Below, in pieces: positions 30,762 through 38,566 of a DNA stretch of 64,000 bases. Position 1 is the first letter of the stretch; each line of letters opens with the position of its first letter. Under the pieces are notes generated by a model. It saw only the letters and a program-made list of their open reading frames with translations, was not told where the DNA came from and did not search any database. The DNA lies in the NCBI RefSeq assembly GCF_018623055.1, contig NZ_CP076019.1, positions 682,001-746,000 of the forward strand. The letters run 5' to 3'. The DNA is from Halorubrum sp. 2020YC2 (lineage in GTDB: Archaea > Halobacteriota > Halobacteria > Halobacteriales > Haloferacaceae). Both the position numbers and the translations under genes were made by a program.

Positions 30762-31466
30762 TCAGGCCCGCCTGATCCGGTCCGCGGTGACCGCGATCGG
30801 CTCGCCGTAGTGGATCACCGGGTCGCCCTCGGGGGCCTCGAAGCCGTTGGCCGCGAACAGCGTGTTCGCCCGGATCTCCGCCTCCGCGGGCCGCAGCGTC
30901 CACGGCTCGTGGTCTATCTCACCGACGTACAGCCGCCCGCCCGCCCCCGCGGTGTAGAACCGGTAGTTCTCTAGGAGGAAGGCCGGCAGCGACCCCGGCT
31001 CGGGCGTGAACGCCTCGCCGGTCGGCGCGTAGGTCGCGTCGAACCGCGCGTGCGGGACGCCCTCGTGGACGCGGCGGCTCGCGAACCGCACGGTATCGAA
31101 CTCGCCGTCCGCGACGGTCCGCCGCACGTCGGTCTCGGCGCGGTAGTACGGGAGCCGGAACAGCCCGCGGGCGACCGCGACGCCGAGGCGGTCGTCGGCG
31201 TCGAGGCTGTGGAAGTAGACGCCGGGACCGTTCGGTCCCTCGACGTAGGTCCGGAGGTTGAGTTCGGGGAACGACAGCCCCATCGGGACTCCCCGAGGGC
31301 GGATGTCGTCCATCACGAACGGGACGACCCCGAGGTAGGCGTCGCCCTCGTGGGTGGCGACCGAGAGTCCGTCGGGCAGCGCCGCGGCGACGGTCGCCGG
31401 GTCGACGGGCCAGTGCGCGAACAGTCCGTCCCGCCACGTCATCTCCAGCCAGCGGCGACCGAGCAT
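30762..31466 (-). CDS. YqjF/DUF2071 family protein
   Basis: About 234 residues from ATG 31466 (MLGRRWLEMTWRDGLFAHWP). The pattern VDPATVAAALPDGLSVATHE, YLGVVPFVMDDIRPRG, ELNLRTYVEGPNGPGVYFHS, LFRLPYYRAE and LPAFLLENYRFYT is the DUF2071 signature. No catalytic function is established for the family. No signal peptide. It converges on the glutamate dehydrogenase gene. Confidence 0.85.
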   Translation of the reverse strand: MLGRRWLEMTWRDGLFAHWPVDPATVAAALPDGLSVATHEGDAYLGVVPFVMDDIRPRGVPMGLSFPELNLRTYVEGPNGPGVYFHSLDADDRLGVAVARGLFRLPYYRAETDVRRTVADGEFDTVRFASRRVHEGVPHARFDATYAPTGEAFTPEPGSLPAFLLENYRFYTAGAGGRLYVGEIDHEPWTLRPAEAEIRANTLFAANGFEAPEGDPVIHYGEPIAVTADRIRRA

Positions 31467-31535
31467 ATCGGATCGTCGGGGCCGGAGGGGCAAAACCCGC
31501 ACGCTGCCGGCGGTTTCGGCCCGGAGCGCACGGTC

Positions 31536-32459
31536 TCACTCGGCGGCGTCCGACCCCTCCGGCGAGTCCTTCCACTCCCCGAGTCCGGAGGGGTCGAGGT
31601 GGACGTGGACGTCGCCCACGTCCTCTAGCGCCCGGAGCGACGTGACGAGTTCCGTCTCCACGTCGTGGGCCTCGCGGAGGGTCATCTCCCCGTCGACCTC
31701 GACGTGGACCTCCACCTCTAGGTCGGTCCCGTCGTAGAACACGGTGAGGTCGTGGACCCCCTCGACGGCGGGCTGATCGCGGAGCGCGGCGACGACGCGC
31801 TCGCGGTCGCCCGGCGGCGGGGCACCCCCCACGAGGTAGGTGACGTTCTCGCGGCCGATCTCGACTCCCTGATACACGACGAGGACGCTGACGAGCGCCC
31901 CCGCGACCGGGTCGAGGATCGGGACGTTGAGGAACACGCCGAACACGCCCACGAGCGCCGCGATAGTGGTGTAGATGTCGTTGAGGCAGTCGGCCGCGAG
32001 GGCGGTCAGCGCGGTCGAGCCGAGGTCGGCGTTCACCAGTTCGGTGTACCAGTACAGCAGGTACATGTCGGCAACCGCGAACACGAGGGCCGCGACGAGG
32101 ACCGGGCTGGCGGTCACCTCCACCGGTCCGACGAACCCGAGCAGCGACTCGCGCAGGAGGATTAAGCCGAGGATACCGATCGTCGCGCCGACGAAAAGCG
32201 CCGTCAGCGGCTCGATCCGCTGGTGGCCGTGCGGGTGGGTCTCGTCGGCGCTCTCGTACCGCGAGCCCCCCCAGACGAACACGACCGCGCTGGCGACGAG
32301 GTCGGCCACGGAGTGGGCGGCGTCGGCCACCAGCGCGACGCTGCCGAACGCGAGCCCCGCCGCCCCCTCGACCGCGATCTTCACCGCGTTGCCGGCGACG
32401 TTCACCGCCGCCGCCCGCTGGAACCGAGCGCGGTCGCCGCTCCCGAAGGGACTCGACAT
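31536..32459 (-). CDS. Cation diffusion facilitator family metal transporter
   Basis: About 307 residues from ATG 32459. Six helices with metal-site motifs DAAHSVAD (HxxxD, helix 2) and DCLND (DxxxD, helix 5), GHQRIEPLTALFVGATIGIL after helix 2, and a C-terminal cytoplasmic ferredoxin-like domain (VEGVHDLTVFYDGTDLEVEV, HVHLDPSG). It exports a divalent metal, probably Zn, Mn or Fe, in exchange for protons. Confidence 0.9.
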   Translation of the reverse strand: MSSPFGSGDRARFQRAAAVNVAGNAVKIAVEGAAGLAFGSVALVADAAHSVADLVASAVVFVWGGSRYESADETHPHGHQRIEPLTALFVGATIGILGLILLRESLLGFVGPVEVTASPVLVAALVFAVADMYLLYWYTELVNADLGSTALTALAADCLNDIYTTIAALVGVFGVFLNVPILDPVAGALVSVLVVYQGVEIGRENVTYLVGGAPPPGDRERVVAALRDQPAVEGVHDLTVFYDGTDLEVEVHVEVDGEMTLREAHDVETELVTSLRALEDVGDVHVHLDPSGLGEWKDSPEGSDAAE

Positions 32460-32639
32460 AGACGCCGGTGTGCCCCCTATCCTGTTAAGCGTCCCGCGTC
32501 GCGCCGGGGGTGCCTCGTCGCCCGACGGCGGCCGCCGTCGGCGGCCGTCTCCGCCGGGAGACTCCGTCGTAACGCCTAAGACCGAAACGCTCCTCGGTGA
32601 CGGTAATGAATCACGATCTTTTCGCCCGAGGTGGTCCCG

Positions 32640-33332
32640 GTGGGCGTCGAAATTAAGGAAACGGAGGTGCGCGACGAGGATTTCGAGGAGATGAAGGGGT
32701 TCGTCCGCGACTACCTCGCGGCCAGCGTCGAGGGCGAGGACGACGGCGGACGCATGCGCTGGTACCCGTGGCACTCGTCGTCATACCGCTTCAACCACAT
32801 CCTCAACGTCGTCGACCTCGCGACGGAGATCGCGGAGGCCGAGGGCGCGGACGTGGACGTGGTCCGAGTCGCGGCCGTCTTCCACGACGTCGCCAAACTG
32901 GAGGCGGAACAGGACGTCCACGCGGAGGCCGGCGCGCGCGTCACCCGCGAGTACCTCCAGAGCCGCGGCAACTACCCCGAGTCGTTCATCGAGGAGGTGT
33001 GCGGCGCCGTCGTCGACCACTCGTACACCGGCGACCTCGCTAACGTGTCCTTAGAGAGCCGATGCCTGATCGAGGCCGACGTGCTCGACAAGGTCGGCGC
33101 AAACGGCGCCGTCCTCATGCTGTTGCGGATGGGATACGAGTCGCGCACGCACATGGACAGCGCGAAGATGGTCGACCGCGTGCTCCAGCGCGCGCACGAC
33201 CACACCGAGCGCGTCGTCTCCGACACCGCGGAGAGCATCGCGCACCAGCGAATCAAGCGCGTGAAGTGGATCCGCGAGTGGCTCGAAGAGGAGGTCTCGC
33301 GGATGGACGCCGAGGGCGTCACCGACCGCTGA
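32640..33332 (+). CDS. HD-domain phosphohydrolase-like protein
   Basis: About 230 residues from GTG 32640 (GVEIKETEVRDEDFEEMKGF); GTG 32631 is the alternative. The metal-binding residues are visible as FNHILNVVDLA (first His), VFHDVAKLEAE (HD), and VVDHSYTGD with EADVLDKVGA (further His/Asp). Soluble. Members of this HD group act on nucleotides or are uncharacterised; substrate unknown. Convergent with the TetR gene. Confidence 0.85.
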   Translation: MGVEIKETEVRDEDFEEMKGFVRDYLAASVEGEDDGGRMRWYPWHSSSYRFNHILNVVDLATEIAEAEGADVDVVRVAAVFHDVAKLEAEQDVHAEAGARVTREYLQSRGNYPESFIEEVCGAVVDHSYTGDLANVSLESRCLIEADVLDKVGANGAVLMLLRMGYESRTHMDSAKMVDRVLQRAHDHTERVVSDTAESIAHQRIKRVKWIREWLEEEVSRMDAEGVTDR

Positions 33333-33346
33333 CGGCGCCTCCGTCC

Positions 33347-34063
33347 CTACTCCCCCGAACCGGTAGTCTCCACGAGCGGCAGCGTCGCCTCCAGGTACCG
33401 ATCGATCCCCGCCCGCGACGACGCGACCCACTCCCGCTCGTTCGTCGTCGCCCACCGGAACATCGCTCCGGTGGCGAACGTCTGGAGCGTCGACGCGACC
33501 TCCGACGCGGGGACGGTCCGGTCGCCGTCCGCCCGCTCGGCGTCCCCGCGGGGCGTCTCGGCCGCCGCCTCGCGGACGAGCCGTTCGAGGTACTGGCCGA
33601 AGACGCGGTCGCTGCGATCGAAGTGCTCGCGGTACGCCTCGTCGCTGCCGGCCTGCGAGCGGAGTTCGGTCATCACGGTGACGAACCGGGCGTCCGGGGC
33701 GTACTCGTCGTCGAGCGACGCCGGGTCGACCGCGGCCGTGAGGTAGCCGTCGAGCTGCTCGCGCGCCGAGCGGTCGAACGCCTCTTCCGGAGCCATCTCC
33801 GGCACGTCGTCCGCCGCCGACGCCTCCGCGGGGGCGCCGTCCGCGATCGACGCCTCGAACTCGTCGAGGAGGTACTCCAACAGGTCGATAAGCAGGTCGT
33901 CTTTCCCGTCGTAGTGGTGGTACACGAGCGACGGGCTCTTGTCGAACTCGTCGCCGATCCGCTGGATCGTGACGTTCGCGTACCCGTGTTCACAGAGCGC
34001 GCGGAACGCCGCGCCGAGGATGGCCTGTCGGGTGTCCGACGGCTCCGCGAACGGGTCGTTCAT
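33347..34063 (-). CDS. TetR/AcrR family transcriptional regulator
   Basis: 238 residues from ATG 34063. N-terminal HTH: DTRQAILGAAFRALCEHGYA, VTIQRIGDEFDKSPSLVYHH, YDGKDDLLIDLLEYLLDEFE. The rest is the helical ligand-binding domain. It is divergent from a membrane-anchored protein and an RND exporter, with a palindrome between, so it very likely represses that pair and is released by an exported compound. A TATATA at 34086-34092 lies just upstream of its ATG. Confidence 0.92.
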   Translation of the reverse strand: MNDPFAEPSDTRQAILGAAFRALCEHGYANVTIQRIGDEFDKSPSLVYHHYDGKDDLLIDLLEYLLDEFEASIADGAPAEASAADDVPEMAPEEAFDRSAREQLDGYLTAAVDPASLDDEYAPDARFVTVMTELRSQAGSDEAYREHFDRSDRVFGQYLERLVREAAAETPRGDAERADGDRTVPASEVASTLQTFATGAMFRWATTNEREWVASSRAGIDRYLEATLPLVETTGSGE

Positions 34064-34102
34064 ACGAGGCTCGTAGGCGGCTGCGATATATAGCAGCCCT
34101 GA

Positions 34103-34118
34103 TTGAACGTTCATTCAA
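34103..34118. promoter_or_regulatory. Probable TetR operator
   Basis: TTGAACGTTCATTCAA contains the perfect palindrome TGAACGTTCA (34104-34113) plus outer TTGAA/TTCAA halves. It lies between the leftward TATA (34086-34092) and a rightward TATA-like TTATTT (34124-34129), so binding would block both promoters. Confidence 0.65.
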
Positions 34119-34231
34119 CACGCTTATTTCTCGGGCGACCCAGCGATCTGTATGACTCGTTCCGACGCGTCACGGTACGGCCGGTCGCCGCGGGCGACCA
34201 GACTCGCTCGCGGGACCGGCGGAGGGGATCG

Positions 34232-35944
34232 ATGAGTCGGTCGACGCGGATCGCGACCGTCGCGCTCGCCGTCGTCGCCGCGAGCGCGCTGCTCGTCGGC
34301 GTCTCGCTGGCCGGCGCCGCGGCGCCGAGCGCGGGGACGGCGGACGGCGGCGATGCGGCCGCGCTCTCCGGAATCGACGGCCCGCTCGCCGATGGCGCAG
34401 TCGCGCAGGCAGGTACCGAATCGGACCCGACTGACAGACAGGTCCGCGGGTCGCCCGTGTTGGAGCTGTTCGCCTCCCAGCGGTCGGTGCCGGCCGGAGC
34501 GGAGTCTACCGTCACGGTCGACATCGTCAACACCGGCGAGATGGAGATCGGTAACCAGCTCAACTCCCGGGTCACGACCGCGCGCGGGCTCACCCTTGAG
34601 ATCGACGACAGTGACGTGCCGATCGACGTTGAGGACGGCGAGATACCGGTCGGCGACGTCTCGACCGCCGCGAGCCCGGTCCCCGTCCAACTGGACGTGA
34701 CCGTGCCCGACGACGTGCCCGACGGCAGGTACGAGGTGGAGGCGACGGCCCGCTACCAGTACACCTTCGAGATAATCCCCGAGTTCAACGACCACAAGGA
34801 CCGCCGCGGCGTCGACGACTTCGACCTGACAATCGTCGTCGACGACGGCGCGCGCTTCGCGGTGCTGGAGACCGACACCGACGCGCAGGTGGGCGGGAGC
34901 GGCGACGTGACCGTCACGATGGCGAACGTCGGCGACGAGACCGCCCGCGACGCGGTCGTTTCGGGGACCACGACCGCGCCCGGCGTCCGCCTCGGAGAGG
35001 GCGGCGGCGAGTCGTTCGTCGGTAACTGGGCGCCCGGCGAGAACCGGACGGTGACGTTCGACTCCGCGGTCACGGAGTCGTTCGGCGGCGGCGCGTACGC
35101 GCTCTCTTCGACCGTCGACTACCGCGACCCCGACGGCGTCGACGCGACCGCGGCGGCCGCGCGCGCCGGGGTCGTCCCGATCCGCGAGCAGTCGTTCTCG
35201 CTGGAGGACGTCTCCGGGACGCTCGAAGTCGGCTACTCCGGAACGGTGTCCGGGACGATCACGAACGAGGGACCGCTCCCCGTCGAGGACGCCGTCCTCG
35301 TGGCCGACTCCGGGAGCAACCGCGTGAGCCTCGGAGAGAGCCGCTACGCGCTCCCGACGATCCCGCCCGGCGAGTCCACGGAGTTCTCGTTCGACGCCGA
35401 CGTGAGCGGGAGCGCGGACCCCGGACCGCGGCAGTTCCGGTTCACCACCGAGTACGACAGCGGCGACTCGACGGTCGCCGTCGAGGAGACCCGTCGCGTC
35501 GAGGTGGCGCCCCGGCAGCCCGAGTTCGAGCTCGCGGTCGACAACGCCACCGTCCCGGCCGGCGAGACCCGACGGATCAACGCCACGATCACGAACCAGC
35601 GGCCGGAGACCCTCTCGTCGATCAACGTCGGGCTGTACGCCGACAGCCCGCTGACGGCCGTCAACGACGAGGCGTTCGTCGACGAACTGGAGCCCGGCGA
35701 GTCCGAGGAGATCTGGTTCGAGGTGTCCGCCGCGTCGAGCGCGAGCGTCGAGGACCACCCGATCGAACTCGACTTCCGGTACGACGACGAGCGGGGCAAC
35801 GACCGCATCTCGGACGTCACGCAGGTCCCGGTGTCGGTGACCGCTCCCGTCGACGACGGGGGGACGCCAACCGGACTGATCGCCGTCGGCGTCCTGCTCG
35901 TCGTCGCTGCCGTCGGCGGCGCCGTCTGGTACCGACGGCGGTGA
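34232..35944 (+). CDS. Secreted, membrane-anchored CARDB/NEW3-type protein (COG1361-like)
   Basis: 570 residues from ATG 34232 (MSRSTRIATVALAVVAASAL, a signal peptide ending near VSLAGAAAPSAG). The body has repeated Ig-like segments with the pattern NTGEMEIGNQL, NVGDETARDAV, NEGPLPVEDAV and NQRPETLSSINV, each followed by a PGE turn. A C-terminal helix LIAVGVLLVVAAVGGAVWYR anchors it with the Ig-like part outside. Such proteins are regularly paired with MMPL exporters in haloarchaea and may act as their extracellular partner. The upstream in-frame codons cross the operator and are excluded. Confidence 0.85.
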   Translation: MSRSTRIATVALAVVAASALLVGVSLAGAAAPSAGTADGGDAAALSGIDGPLADGAVAQAGTESDPTDRQVRGSPVLELFASQRSVPAGAESTVTVDIVNTGEMEIGNQLNSRVTTARGLTLEIDDSDVPIDVEDGEIPVGDVSTAASPVPVQLDVTVPDDVPDGRYEVEATARYQYTFEIIPEFNDHKDRRGVDDFDLTIVVDDGARFAVLETDTDAQVGGSGDVTVTMANVGDETARDAVVSGTTTAPGVRLGEGGGESFVGNWAPGENRTVTFDSAVTESFGGGAYALSSTVDYRDPDGVDATAAAARAGVVPIREQSFSLEDVSGTLEVGYSGTVSGTITNEGPLPVEDAVLVADSGSNRVSLGESRYALPTIPPGESTEFSFDADVSGSADPGPRQFRFTTEYDSGDSTVAVEETRRVEVAPRQPEFELAVDNATVPAGETRRINATITNQRPETLSSINVGLYADSPLTAVNDEAFVDELEPGESEEIWFEVSAASSASVEDHPIELDFRYDDERGNDRISDVTQVPVSVTAPVDDGGTPTGLIAVGVLLVVAAVGGAVWYRRR

Positions 35945-36067
35945 TCGGATGACGGGACACGCCACCGCTCGACCGCGAGACGGAGTCCGCGCTCGGCCGG
36001 CCACGAGCGCGTCGGCTCGACCGGTACCGGGGCGCCCGACGGCGAGACGCCGGACAGCGGGGCGCCG

Positions 36068-38566
36068 GTGACCGCGGCCGACCGCCTCATCGAGGAGATC
36101 GACCGCGTCGTCACGGAGCGGCCGCTGGCGGTTCTGGCGGTCTTCCTCCTCCTCACGGTCGCCTTCGCGGGCGGCCTGACGGGCATCGAGACGAGCGCGG
36201 GCGCGGACCAGTTCACGCAGGACATCCCCGCGCAGCAGGCGCTCGACGAGATCGACGAGGAGTTCGAGACGTCGATCGGCGGCTCCGCCACCTCGGCGCA
36301 GGTGATCGTCTCCGACGACAACGTCCTCTCGCGGGACGCCCTGGTTCGGACCTTGGAGACGCAACACCGGTTGGAGTCGCGCTCCACCCTCCGGGTCGCG
36401 TCGACGTCGAGCCACGCGGACGCGATCGCGAGACAGCTGGACCCGAACGCCGCGAGCGCGGCCGAGCGGCGCGACGCCGTGGCGGAGGCGACGCCCGCCG
36501 AACTGCGGACGGCGATCGCGGACGCGGACGCCGCGGGCGCCATCGCGGCGCAGGTGTCCGTCGACTACAACCCCACCGCGCAGGCGGCCGACACCGCCAT
36601 CGTGGGGATCACCTACGACCTGCCGGACGCGGCCACGACGGCGCGGGTGACGGAGCTTCAGACCCGCAGCGTCGACATCGTCGACTCCGTCCCGGGCAAC
36701 GAGGCCGGCGAGAACGCGATCCTCTTCGGCGACGGCGTCCTCCAGTCGGAGATCACCGCCCTGTTGACCGACACCGCGATCATCGTCTTTCCGGCGGCGC
36801 TAATCCTGATCGTCGGGTTCCTGATCTTCTCGTACCGGGACCCGTTCGACATGGCGATCGGCATCTCGGCGCTGCTGCTGTCGCTCCTGTGGACGTTCGG
36901 CTTCATGGGGTACGCCGGGATTCCCTTCTCGGACTCGCTCGTGACCGTCTTCCCGCTCCTGCTCGCGGTCGGGATCGACTTCGGGATACACATCGTCAAC
37001 CGCTACCGCGAGGAGCGCGCGACCGGGACCGGGATCGAGGCGTCGATGCGGACCACGACGGACCAGCTGCTCATCGCCTTCCTCTTGGTGACTATCACCA
37101 CGGTGTTCGGGCTCGTCTCTAACGTGGTGAGTCCCTTCGACCCCAACCGCGACTTCGGCATCGTCGCGGCCGCCGGAATCATTTTCACGCTGGTGATATT
37201 CGGCGTCTACCTCCCGGCCGCGAAGGTGCTCATCGACCGGTGGCGAGAGGGACTGCCGATCCCGGAGTTCGGCACGAGCGCGCTCGGCTCCGGCGGCTCG
37301 CGGCTGGCGAGGGTCCTCCACGTCGGGGTCGACCTCTCGCGGATCGCCCCGGTCGCGGTCGTCGCCCTCCTCCTCGTCGGCGGTGCGGTCGGCGGCGCCT
37401 ACGGGACCGGCGTCAACACGGAGTTCTCGGAGGAGGCGTTCTTCCCCGACCAAGACCGACTGGAGACGTACTCGAACCTCCCGGAACCGTTCGCGCCGAC
37501 GGAGTACACCTTCCTCGACGTGTTGAACCTCTTCGAGGAGGAGTTCGAACAGGACTTCGTTGGGTCGGTGACGCTGTACATCGACCAATCGGTCAGAGAC
37601 GACGACTCCTTGGAGCTGATCGACCGGACGACGCGGAACCCGCCCGACACCTTCGCGACGACCGACGAGCGCCGGGCGCAGTCGACCAGCGTCGTCACCG
37701 TGATCGACGACCGGGCGGCGCAGGACCCCGAGTTCGCGGCGCTGGTCGAGCGCAACGACCGCCTCGGCAACGGCGTGCCGGACCGGAACGTCGACGAGGT
37801 GTACGACGCGCTGCTCGATTCGCCGGCGGGGGATCAGGCCCGCGGGTACGTGGCGGCCGACCGCGGCAGCGCGCGGATCGATTACACGATCGAGCCGGGC
37901 GTCGACAACTCCGAGGCGGTCGCGGACGTGCGCGCCCTCGCCGAGCGCACCCCGCTCGAAGCCGTGCCGACCGGCGACCTCGTCGTCAACGAGGCCGTGA
38001 TCGACCTGTTGACCGAGTCGGCAATCCGGAGCCTCTTCGCCGCCTTCGGGCTCACGGCGCTGTTCTTGGCGCTGTCGTACGCGTACCTCGAAGGGAAGGC
38101 GGTCTACGGCCTGTTGAACCTAGTTCCCGTCCTCGTCACCGTCGGGCTGCTCGTCGGGTCGATGCGGCTGTTCGACATTCCGCTGACGCCGATCAACGCG
38201 CCGATTCTCTCCGTCTCCATCGGCCTCGGGGTCGACTACACGGTCCACTTCGTCCACCGGTTCGTCGACGAGTTCAAGTCCGGCCTCCCGATCGACGAGG
38301 CGCTCGACGTCACCATCGCCGGGACGGGCGGCGCGCTCACCGGGAGCATGCTCACCACGGTGTCCGGGCTGGGTGTCCTGTTCCTGGCGGTTATCCCCCT
38401 GCTGCGCGACTTCGGTATCCTGCTCGCGCTCGGCGTGTTCTACGCCTACCTCTGTTCGATCCTGCTCGTCCCGTCGCTCGTCGTCGTGTGGGACCGGTAC
38501 GGCCCGCTCGTCGGGCTCGGCCTCGACGACGGGCTCCGCGGAGCGAACGCCGAGAGCGGGCGCTGA
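36068..38566 (+). CDS. RND superfamily exporter, MMPL type
   Basis: 832 residues from GTG. Two repeats, each with one helix, a large outer loop, then five helices: VLAVFLLLTVAFAGGLTGIE; FPAALILIVGFLIFSYRDPF; VGIDFGIHIVNRYREER in repeat one and VGLGVDYTVHFVHRF in repeat two, the last two carrying the conserved GxDxxxHxxxR-like relay. Proton-driven export of hydrophobic molecules is the expected role. It follows the anchored Ig-like protein by 123 bases and is probably cotranscribed. Confidence 0.92.
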   Translation: MTAADRLIEEIDRVVTERPLAVLAVFLLLTVAFAGGLTGIETSAGADQFTQDIPAQQALDEIDEEFETSIGGSATSAQVIVSDDNVLSRDALVRTLETQHRLESRSTLRVASTSSHADAIARQLDPNAASAAERRDAVAEATPAELRTAIADADAAGAIAAQVSVDYNPTAQAADTAIVGITYDLPDAATTARVTELQTRSVDIVDSVPGNEAGENAILFGDGVLQSEITALLTDTAIIVFPAALILIVGFLIFSYRDPFDMAIGISALLLSLLWTFGFMGYAGIPFSDSLVTVFPLLLAVGIDFGIHIVNRYREERATGTGIEASMRTTTDQLLIAFLLVTITTVFGLVSNVVSPFDPNRDFGIVAAAGIIFTLVIFGVYLPAAKVLIDRWREGLPIPEFGTSALGSGGSRLARVLHVGVDLSRIAPVAVVALLLVGGAVGGAYGTGVNTEFSEEAFFPDQDRLETYSNLPEPFAPTEYTFLDVLNLFEEEFEQDFVGSVTLYIDQSVRDDDSLELIDRTTRNPPDTFATTDERRAQSTSVVTVIDDRAAQDPEFAALVERNDRLGNGVPDRNVDEVYDALLDSPAGDQARGYVAADRGSARIDYTIEPGVDNSEAVADVRALAERTPLEAVPTGDLVVNEAVIDLLTESAIRSLFAAFGLTALFLALSYAYLEGKAVYGLLNLVPVLVTVGLLVGSMRLFDIPLTPINAPILSVSIGLGVDYTVHFVHRFVDEFKSGLPIDEALDVTIAGTGGALTGSMLTTVSGLGVLFLAVIPLLRDFGILLALGVFYAYLCSILLVPSLVVVWDRYGPLVGLGLDDGLRGANAESGR

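Follow-up and report, generated by a model that had tools for sequence, protein, structure and literature searches.

We examined a 64,000-nucleotide (nt) stretch of DNA from Halorubrum sp. 2020YC2 (positions 682001-746000 of a single 3.06-Mb contig; hereafter, the window), in which a TetR-family regulator gene on the reverse strand is divergent from a two-gene operon on the forward strand. The operon encodes an immunoglobulin (Ig)-like protein and then an MMPL/RND pump. All three genes of the TetR, anchored Ig-like and MMPL module proposed in an initial annotation are present, with Pfam scores above the cut-offs. The regulator (33347-34063, reverse strand; 238 amino acids, probably leaderless) scores 37.4 bits against TetR_N (cut-off 24), the Ig-like partner (34232-35944, forward strand; 570 amino acids) 41 bits against CARDB (cut-off 22.7), and the pump (36068-38566, forward strand; 832 amino acids, 12 helices, two porter domains) 110.2 bits against MMPL (Pfam PF03176, cut-off 20.5). 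The pump is 96% identical to its counterpart in H. trapanicum, and Halorubrum species are the closest named relatives.

Two small open reading frames (ORFs) on the forward strand, absent from the initial annotation, flank the Ig-like gene. Micro-ORF 1 (34152-34235; 27 codons) begins with an ATG in a leaderless position and ends in a TGA with a 4-nt overlap onto the Ig-like ATG. Micro-ORF 2 (35949-36071; 40 codons) likewise ends in a TGA that overlaps the pump GTG by 4 nt. Judging from the sequence and by analogy, the locus probably encodes a TetR-repressed, translationally coupled two-protein exporter that works like MmpS-MmpL.

Micro-ORFs at the gene junctions

The Ig-like and pump genes are separated here by a 123-nt gap bridged by micro-ORF 2, whose ATG lies 4 nt past the Ig-like stop. 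A bridge with a 4-nt overlap onto the pump GTG occurs in 28 of 29 genus loci (the window counted in; L053 is the exception). It recurs in 14 of the 15 loci scored among 17 further genus loci, 15 of which were chosen for carrying the operator described below and two of which (L130, L131) were already known; the miss is L131, from a genome (G025) that is 79% complete and has fragmented genes. In the first genus set, all but one of the 20 distinct gap lengths are divisible by three, and the bridge frame holds a single stop in 899 codons. The frame is open in all 28 in-register loci, as compared with 21.0 ± 2.2 (maximum 27) in 2000 base shuffles. Frame 2 was not used as a control, its 28 stops probably including many TGA codons within the conserved ATGA.

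A wider set of 80 named loci shows two ways of joining the genes; 34 of these loci are on contigs equal in length to ones sampled earlier. The pump starts between -8 and +10 nt from the Ig-like stop in 38, and a bridge is present in another 38 (33 Halorubrum-like, 5 Natrialba). Two loci (L182, L241) have neither arrangement, and the Ig-like gene was not found in L244, which lies at a contig end, or in L251. Stop-start contact or a bridge is thus seen in 76 of 78 named loci, and the gap apparently widened in more than one lineage, to judge from the sequences of the Halorubrum-like loci and Natrialba.

Micro-ORF 1 begins 34 nt 3' of the operator. The 4-nt overlap of its TGA with the Ig-like start is seen in 28 of 30 genus loci (again with the window; the overlap is 1 nt in L067, and L060 is taken up below) and in all 15 further genus loci scored. 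The two unscored were L126, which falls outside the motif used (the same contig, as L196, has the overlap), and L130, which has no Ig-like match. Among 56 operator-bearing named loci, an ATG or GTG 26-45 nt downstream opens a micro-ORF with a 4-nt overlap in 42 and with a 1-nt overlap in 1, and is the Ig-like start itself in 3. Since in both promoters a TATA-like box stands about 26 nt before an ATG and leaderless transcripts make up a reported 72% of protein-coding transcripts in H. volcanii (PMC4983044), the exporter transcript is likely to start, leaderless, at 34152.

The micro-ORFs could instead be by-products of G+C-rich DNA, the gaps being ordinary intergenic sequence and the pump being initiated independently. 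Two findings speak for this. In 400 kb of the same genome, screened by similar criteria with genes called by a simple composition filter (~81% coverage), a bridge would be possible in 7 of 111 wide same-strand gaps, against 8.3 in shuffled sequence. Micro-ORF 1 shows no codon-position bias, at the third position or elsewhere, with entropies of 0.59/0.48/0.54 in 17 loci and 0.84/0.80/0.92 in 12; these flat values leave a functional micro-peptide from micro-ORF 1 unsupported. Against the by-product explanation stand the 38 bridges in the 40 Ig-pump gaps without a direct start and the predominance of gap lengths divisible by three. In addition, Natrialba L229 and L230, with a gap of 94 nt, start the bridge at -4 or +8, in the other matching frame. 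GGAGG-type motifs (4 nt or longer) also precede only 13 of 30 pump starts, compared with 40 of 42 Ig-like starts. We therefore regard by-product ORFs as a doubtful, if still sizeable, alternative, and lean modestly towards micro-ORFs that lack a conserved peptide and were selected as frame-locked bridges, which would preserve ribosome hand-over where the gap between the Ig-like and pump genes widened.

The rate of 7 in 111, being that of chance, also makes bridging a property of the Ig-RND locus and not a general habit of the genome; a genome-wide device is unsupported. Within the window, a bridge would fit into 2 of 6 wide gaps, or 2 of 8 under an earlier filter, so a single occurrence proves nothing. 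One gap, between a cation-efflux gene and the next ORF on the reverse strand (30762-32774), is 93 nt long and could hold 30 codons from an ATG 4 nt after the stop to an ATGA start.

Pairing of the Ig-like protein and the pump

Is the Ig-like protein a partner of the pump? The initial annotation named a lack of co-occurrence across genomes as the outcome that would count against the idea. We sampled 59 genomes (that of the window and others from its genus and order), in which merged matches comprise 144 RND loci and at least 122 Ig-like loci. An Ig-like gene lies directly upstream on the same strand in at least 93 of the 102 RND loci scoring 500 bits or more, and given this pairing the two genes do co-occur. 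Below 500 bits, an upstream Ig-like gene was found in at least 1 of 42 loci. When 40 of the 50 unpaired RND loci were fetched, a profile search detected no same-strand Ig partner within 1.5 kb. In the phylum, where RND alone was searched, the RND profile matched at E ≤ 1e-60 in 16 of 80 genomes, 14 from the window's order and, outside it, 2 from a single other family (f26).

The pairing had been thought undescribed in archaea, which proved mistaken. A 2024 study (PMC11349517) reports, for a selection of 21 haloarchaeal genomes, RND permeases beside Ig-fold, C-terminally anchored proteins and proposes a functional interaction in the pseudoperiplasmic space, so the pairing is not new. In Haloferax volcanii, the Ig-fold glycoprotein HVO_A0466 is described there as four Ig-folds and a C-terminal membrane helix. 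Its gene immediately precedes that of the RND permease HVO_A0467, an arrangement reported to be widespread in haloarchaea. The window shares the anchored Ig-fold gene upstream of an RND gene, a likeness drawn without comparison to the HVO sequences. However, the H. volcanii genes are reported to have a 1-nt stop/start overlap, in place of which the window has its bridged gap, and more pump under iron starvation, whereas the present locus has bridging micro-ORFs and a TetR switch with a shared operator. The main text of that paper uses none of the terms 'TetR', 'operator', 'uORF' and 'intergenic', and the conserved repressor switch and bridging micro-ORFs look new.

The description of the downstream gene as an MMPL/RND pump is borne out by the Pfam score and by an AlphaFold2 model (predicted local distance difference test score, pLDDT, 84.2; predicted template modelling score, pTM, 0.76) with a 12-helix RND fold, whose best PDB matches in Foldseek are MmpL5/MmpS5 and MmpL4. 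D304, H308, R312, Y724, H727 and R731 are invariant in 25 aligned rows, and D723 is conserved in at least 90%. Taken together, model and alignment indicate the two-porter, 12-helix fold with conserved acidic membrane-core residues in both halves that marks MMPL proteins. The HAE3 transporters (NCBIfam TIGR00921) are the nearest named subfamily, and the pump falls short of it at 206.5 versus 351.9 bits. The conserved acidic residues, with the role that goes with them, we take to belong to helices 4 and 10.

The upstream protein is likewise what it had been called, an anchored Ig-like protein: besides the CARDB match it has a signal-peptide-like N-terminus (by eye) and a C-terminal helix at 547-569 with a basic tail. 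We read four beta-sandwich domains in its AlphaFold2 model (mean pLDDT 81.3), and it may serve as an outside adaptor. In L062-L065, the Ig-like partners reach ~680 amino acids through an insertion that resembles an additional beta-sandwich domain; the stalk thus differs in length between loci, while the C-terminal part is most alike.

Alternatively, the Ig-like protein may be an independent surface or glycan-binding protein whose link with the pump is no more than shared regulation. Cell-surface proteins widely contain CARDB-type domains and, among the matches listed, 28 of 122 Ig-like loci have no neighbouring RND match, the pump adjoining the other 94. Yet, among the matches listed, the Ig-like gene is absent at only nine of the 102 close RND homologues, two of which are fragments (one in G008, over a contig end, and one in G025). 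The near-universal contact or bridging in the named loci and the seldom-paired distant RNDs also argue against independence, which we regard as unlikely.

A coiled-coil insert as an exact alternative to the Ig partner holds only in part, with 30 of the 40 fetched unpaired RND frames lacking 150 or more extra residues. The other ten (L133, L135, L136, L138, L139, L141, L144, L146, L147 and L148) have at least that many in or before porter domain 1, counted in frames that run stop to stop, part of which may precede the true start. The extra residues in these unpaired pumps are perhaps a built-in projection.

A second, diverged Ig-RND pair occurs elsewhere in the same genome (L039, 3469-7941). 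Its divergent gene (L039, 8090-8971), read without a family search, resembles a TrmB-type regulator and not TetR.

The palindrome between the divergent promoters

The initial annotation placed an operator, TTGAACGTTCATTCAA, across both promoters. This string is present without mismatch at 34103-34118, and with up to 3 mismatches the window holds two matches (one place, both strands) against 0.07 expected. It is only an imperfect palindrome; what is conserved is TGAnTGAACGTTCAnTCA, an 18-bp palindrome at 34100-34117. This predicted TetR operator (TGATTGAACGTTCATTCA, no strand) is unique in the genome, every one of the remaining sites found in the 3.06 Mb having 3 mismatches to it. It is shared by the two promoters and lies between them, but abuts TATA-like boxes, identified by eye, instead of covering them. 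It stands midway between the box of the tetR promoter (34087-34092, reverse strand), ~26 nt 5' of the ATG in an A/T-rich block partly conserved across 44 aligned loci, and that of the Ig-RND promoter (34123-34129, forward strand), where ACAcGCTTAt is conserved in the 44 loci.

The operator occurs with at most one mismatch in 44 of 52 genus genomes, and a reversed control pattern in none of the 52. In an alignment of 44 loci picked by near-match to the operator, information content is 1.96 bits per position within it versus 0.96 and 1.23 in the flanks. The regulator has two traits of the TetR family, the TetR_N helix-turn-helix (HTH) and, at the level of sequence, a palindromic operator in its own promoter region. 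Compared with 27 other genus loci, its mean identity is 88% in the HTH part and 62% in the remainder.

Regulator and site also come and go together. TetR is encoded in 27 of 29 fetched genus loci; the site is perfect in 26 of these and has 2 mismatches in L067, and the tetR-less L053 and L059 have no site at up to 4 mismatches. Across genera, among the 78 named loci with an Ig-like gene, 51 have both, 3 have TetR only, 5 the site only and 19 neither (Fisher p 7.5e-11, kinship ignored). The association persists (p = 6.1e-10) after dropping L218 and L232, two contig-end loci with scant upstream sequence that are both among the 19. A single palindrome between two promoters that is conserved in the genus and tracks TetR supports the annotated shared operator, which would control both divergent promoters.

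TetR could in principle activate the exporter, since the operator is located upstream of the exporter's TATA-like box and archaeal activators can bind at such positions. L053 and L059 argue otherwise. At a junction that they share, tetR and the operator are missing, yet AACACGCTTAT (the Ig promoter), the leaderless ATG and both genes are retained, in what reads as one natural deletion. Loss of the regulator and its site with the exporter promoter kept agrees with a repressor but not with an activator that is required. On this single event, with the core promoter surviving, an activating role seems improbable.

Further palindromes were noted at other loci. A sister palindrome, TGACTGAACGTTCAGTCA, lies at L127 2613, L128 ~5022 and L129 ~4980 (with one base different in L129), beside a MATE transporter-like ORF in L127 and an acyl-CoA dehydrogenase-like ORF in L129, both read without a family search; these sites probably belong to another regulon. 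Two copies of a TGACTGACTGGTCAGTCA-type palindrome occur in the window's genome, at G000:C1:1734489 and 2112041 (L040, L041).

A proposed mechanism for the exporter

We propose that a TetR dimer on the palindrome would block basal factors at both promoters, repressing tetR and the exporter, until a ligand releases it and repression is lifted. The exporter mRNA would then begin at micro-ORF 1, giving ribosomes leaderless entry. They would stop at its TGA, reinitiate on the overlapping Ig-like start and, past the Ig-like stop, reach the pump GTG by way of micro-ORF 2. The micro-ORF peptides themselves would be irrelevant, with frame and stop/start overlaps being what counts. Such coupling would set how much anchored four-domain stalk is made per MMPL pump, the latter presumably driven by protons or sodium. 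The two may assemble on the outer side of the membrane, in the manner of MmpS and MmpL, to export a substrate that is probably amphiphilic.

Several observations weigh against this proposal. In L060 the micro-ORF 1 stop is lost, and 10 of the 56 operator-bearing named loci yielded no coupled micro-ORF 1 and no direct start either. The bridge is broken in L053 (= L182), where a short tandem duplication displaced the pump start from the bridge end, and the codon-position constraint test covered micro-ORF 1 only. L212, L239 and L226 encode TetR and have no site at up to 2 mismatches, L226 having a 3-mismatch site. Conversely, L207, L227, L229, L233 and L235 (Halobiforma/Natrialba) have a site with 0-2 mismatches, yet their fetched flanks revealed no TetR; these loci may be served by a regulator gene located elsewhere. 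The tetR/operator deletion is one event in two species, and the counts are not independent because the loci are related and 34 of the named loci apparently overlap the earlier sample. Foldseek searches with the Ig-like model returned generic multi-domain matches, with query-length template modelling (TM)-scores of at most 0.32 among the matches listed.

Read-through or frameshifting at the Ig-like stop, giving an Ig-pump fusion or an extended pump, would explain multiple-of-three gaps and the frame shared by both genes in 28 of 29 genus loci, but is rejected as highly improbable given stops in the common frame within the gap in 6 of 29 loci (8 stops), Ig-like genes that end on all three stop codons, and a pump GTG retained in 29 of 29.

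The translational part of the proposal has precedents in H. volcanii, in which termination-reinitiation is reported at 4-nt and 1-nt stop/start overlaps (PMC6728339, PMC10666635), the kind of overlap found here. However, those are overlaps between genes, whereas here non-conserved micro-ORFs provide the overlap across a widened gap. A separation of ~20 nt is reported nearly to abolish coupling, and short overlaps are 8.1-fold enriched among complex subunits (PMC10666635), a possible reason why a bridge would be needed. Fresh initiation inside haloarchaeal operons is thought rare (PMC6728339). Micro-ORF 1 fits the idea of short upstream ORFs that deliver ribosomes (reviewed in PMC12548453), while micro-ORF 2 differs in standing between two structural genes and bridging both. 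No description of bridging micro-ORFs was found among literature-search results or in the portions covered of PMC10666635, PMC12548453, PMC4983044 and PMC6728339, nor anything on this locus in a literature search, subscription journals lying mostly outside its coverage.

The mycobacterial MmpS5-MmpL5 and MmpS4-MmpL4 systems similarly combine an MMPL pump with a single-helix, membrane-anchored Ig-like operon partner, in a direct 3:3 complex required for efflux. MmpS5, at ~15 kDa with one C-terminal Ig-like domain, is reported to be needed for trimer formation and efflux (PMC12501195). In contrast to a small protein with an N-terminal helix and one Ig-like domain, the 570-residue archaeal partner has a signal-like N-terminus, four domains and a C-terminal anchor, and thus the opposite topology; the archaeal pump also lacks a long insert like the coiled coil of MmpL5. 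Given these differences in topology and size, the archaeal partner may work like MmpS, but is not one.

If the bridges are under selection, they would be genetic evidence that the pair has to be made together, probably as one complex, by operon wiring absent from the portions of the papers compared here. The locus would also open an uncharacterised family of haloarchaeal pumps to experiment, offering a defined repressor and operator and natural regulator-less strains; a single stop codon in a micro-ORF is predicted to silence the pump. More broadly, the proposed arrangement bears on how haloarchaea may keep partner proteins in step.

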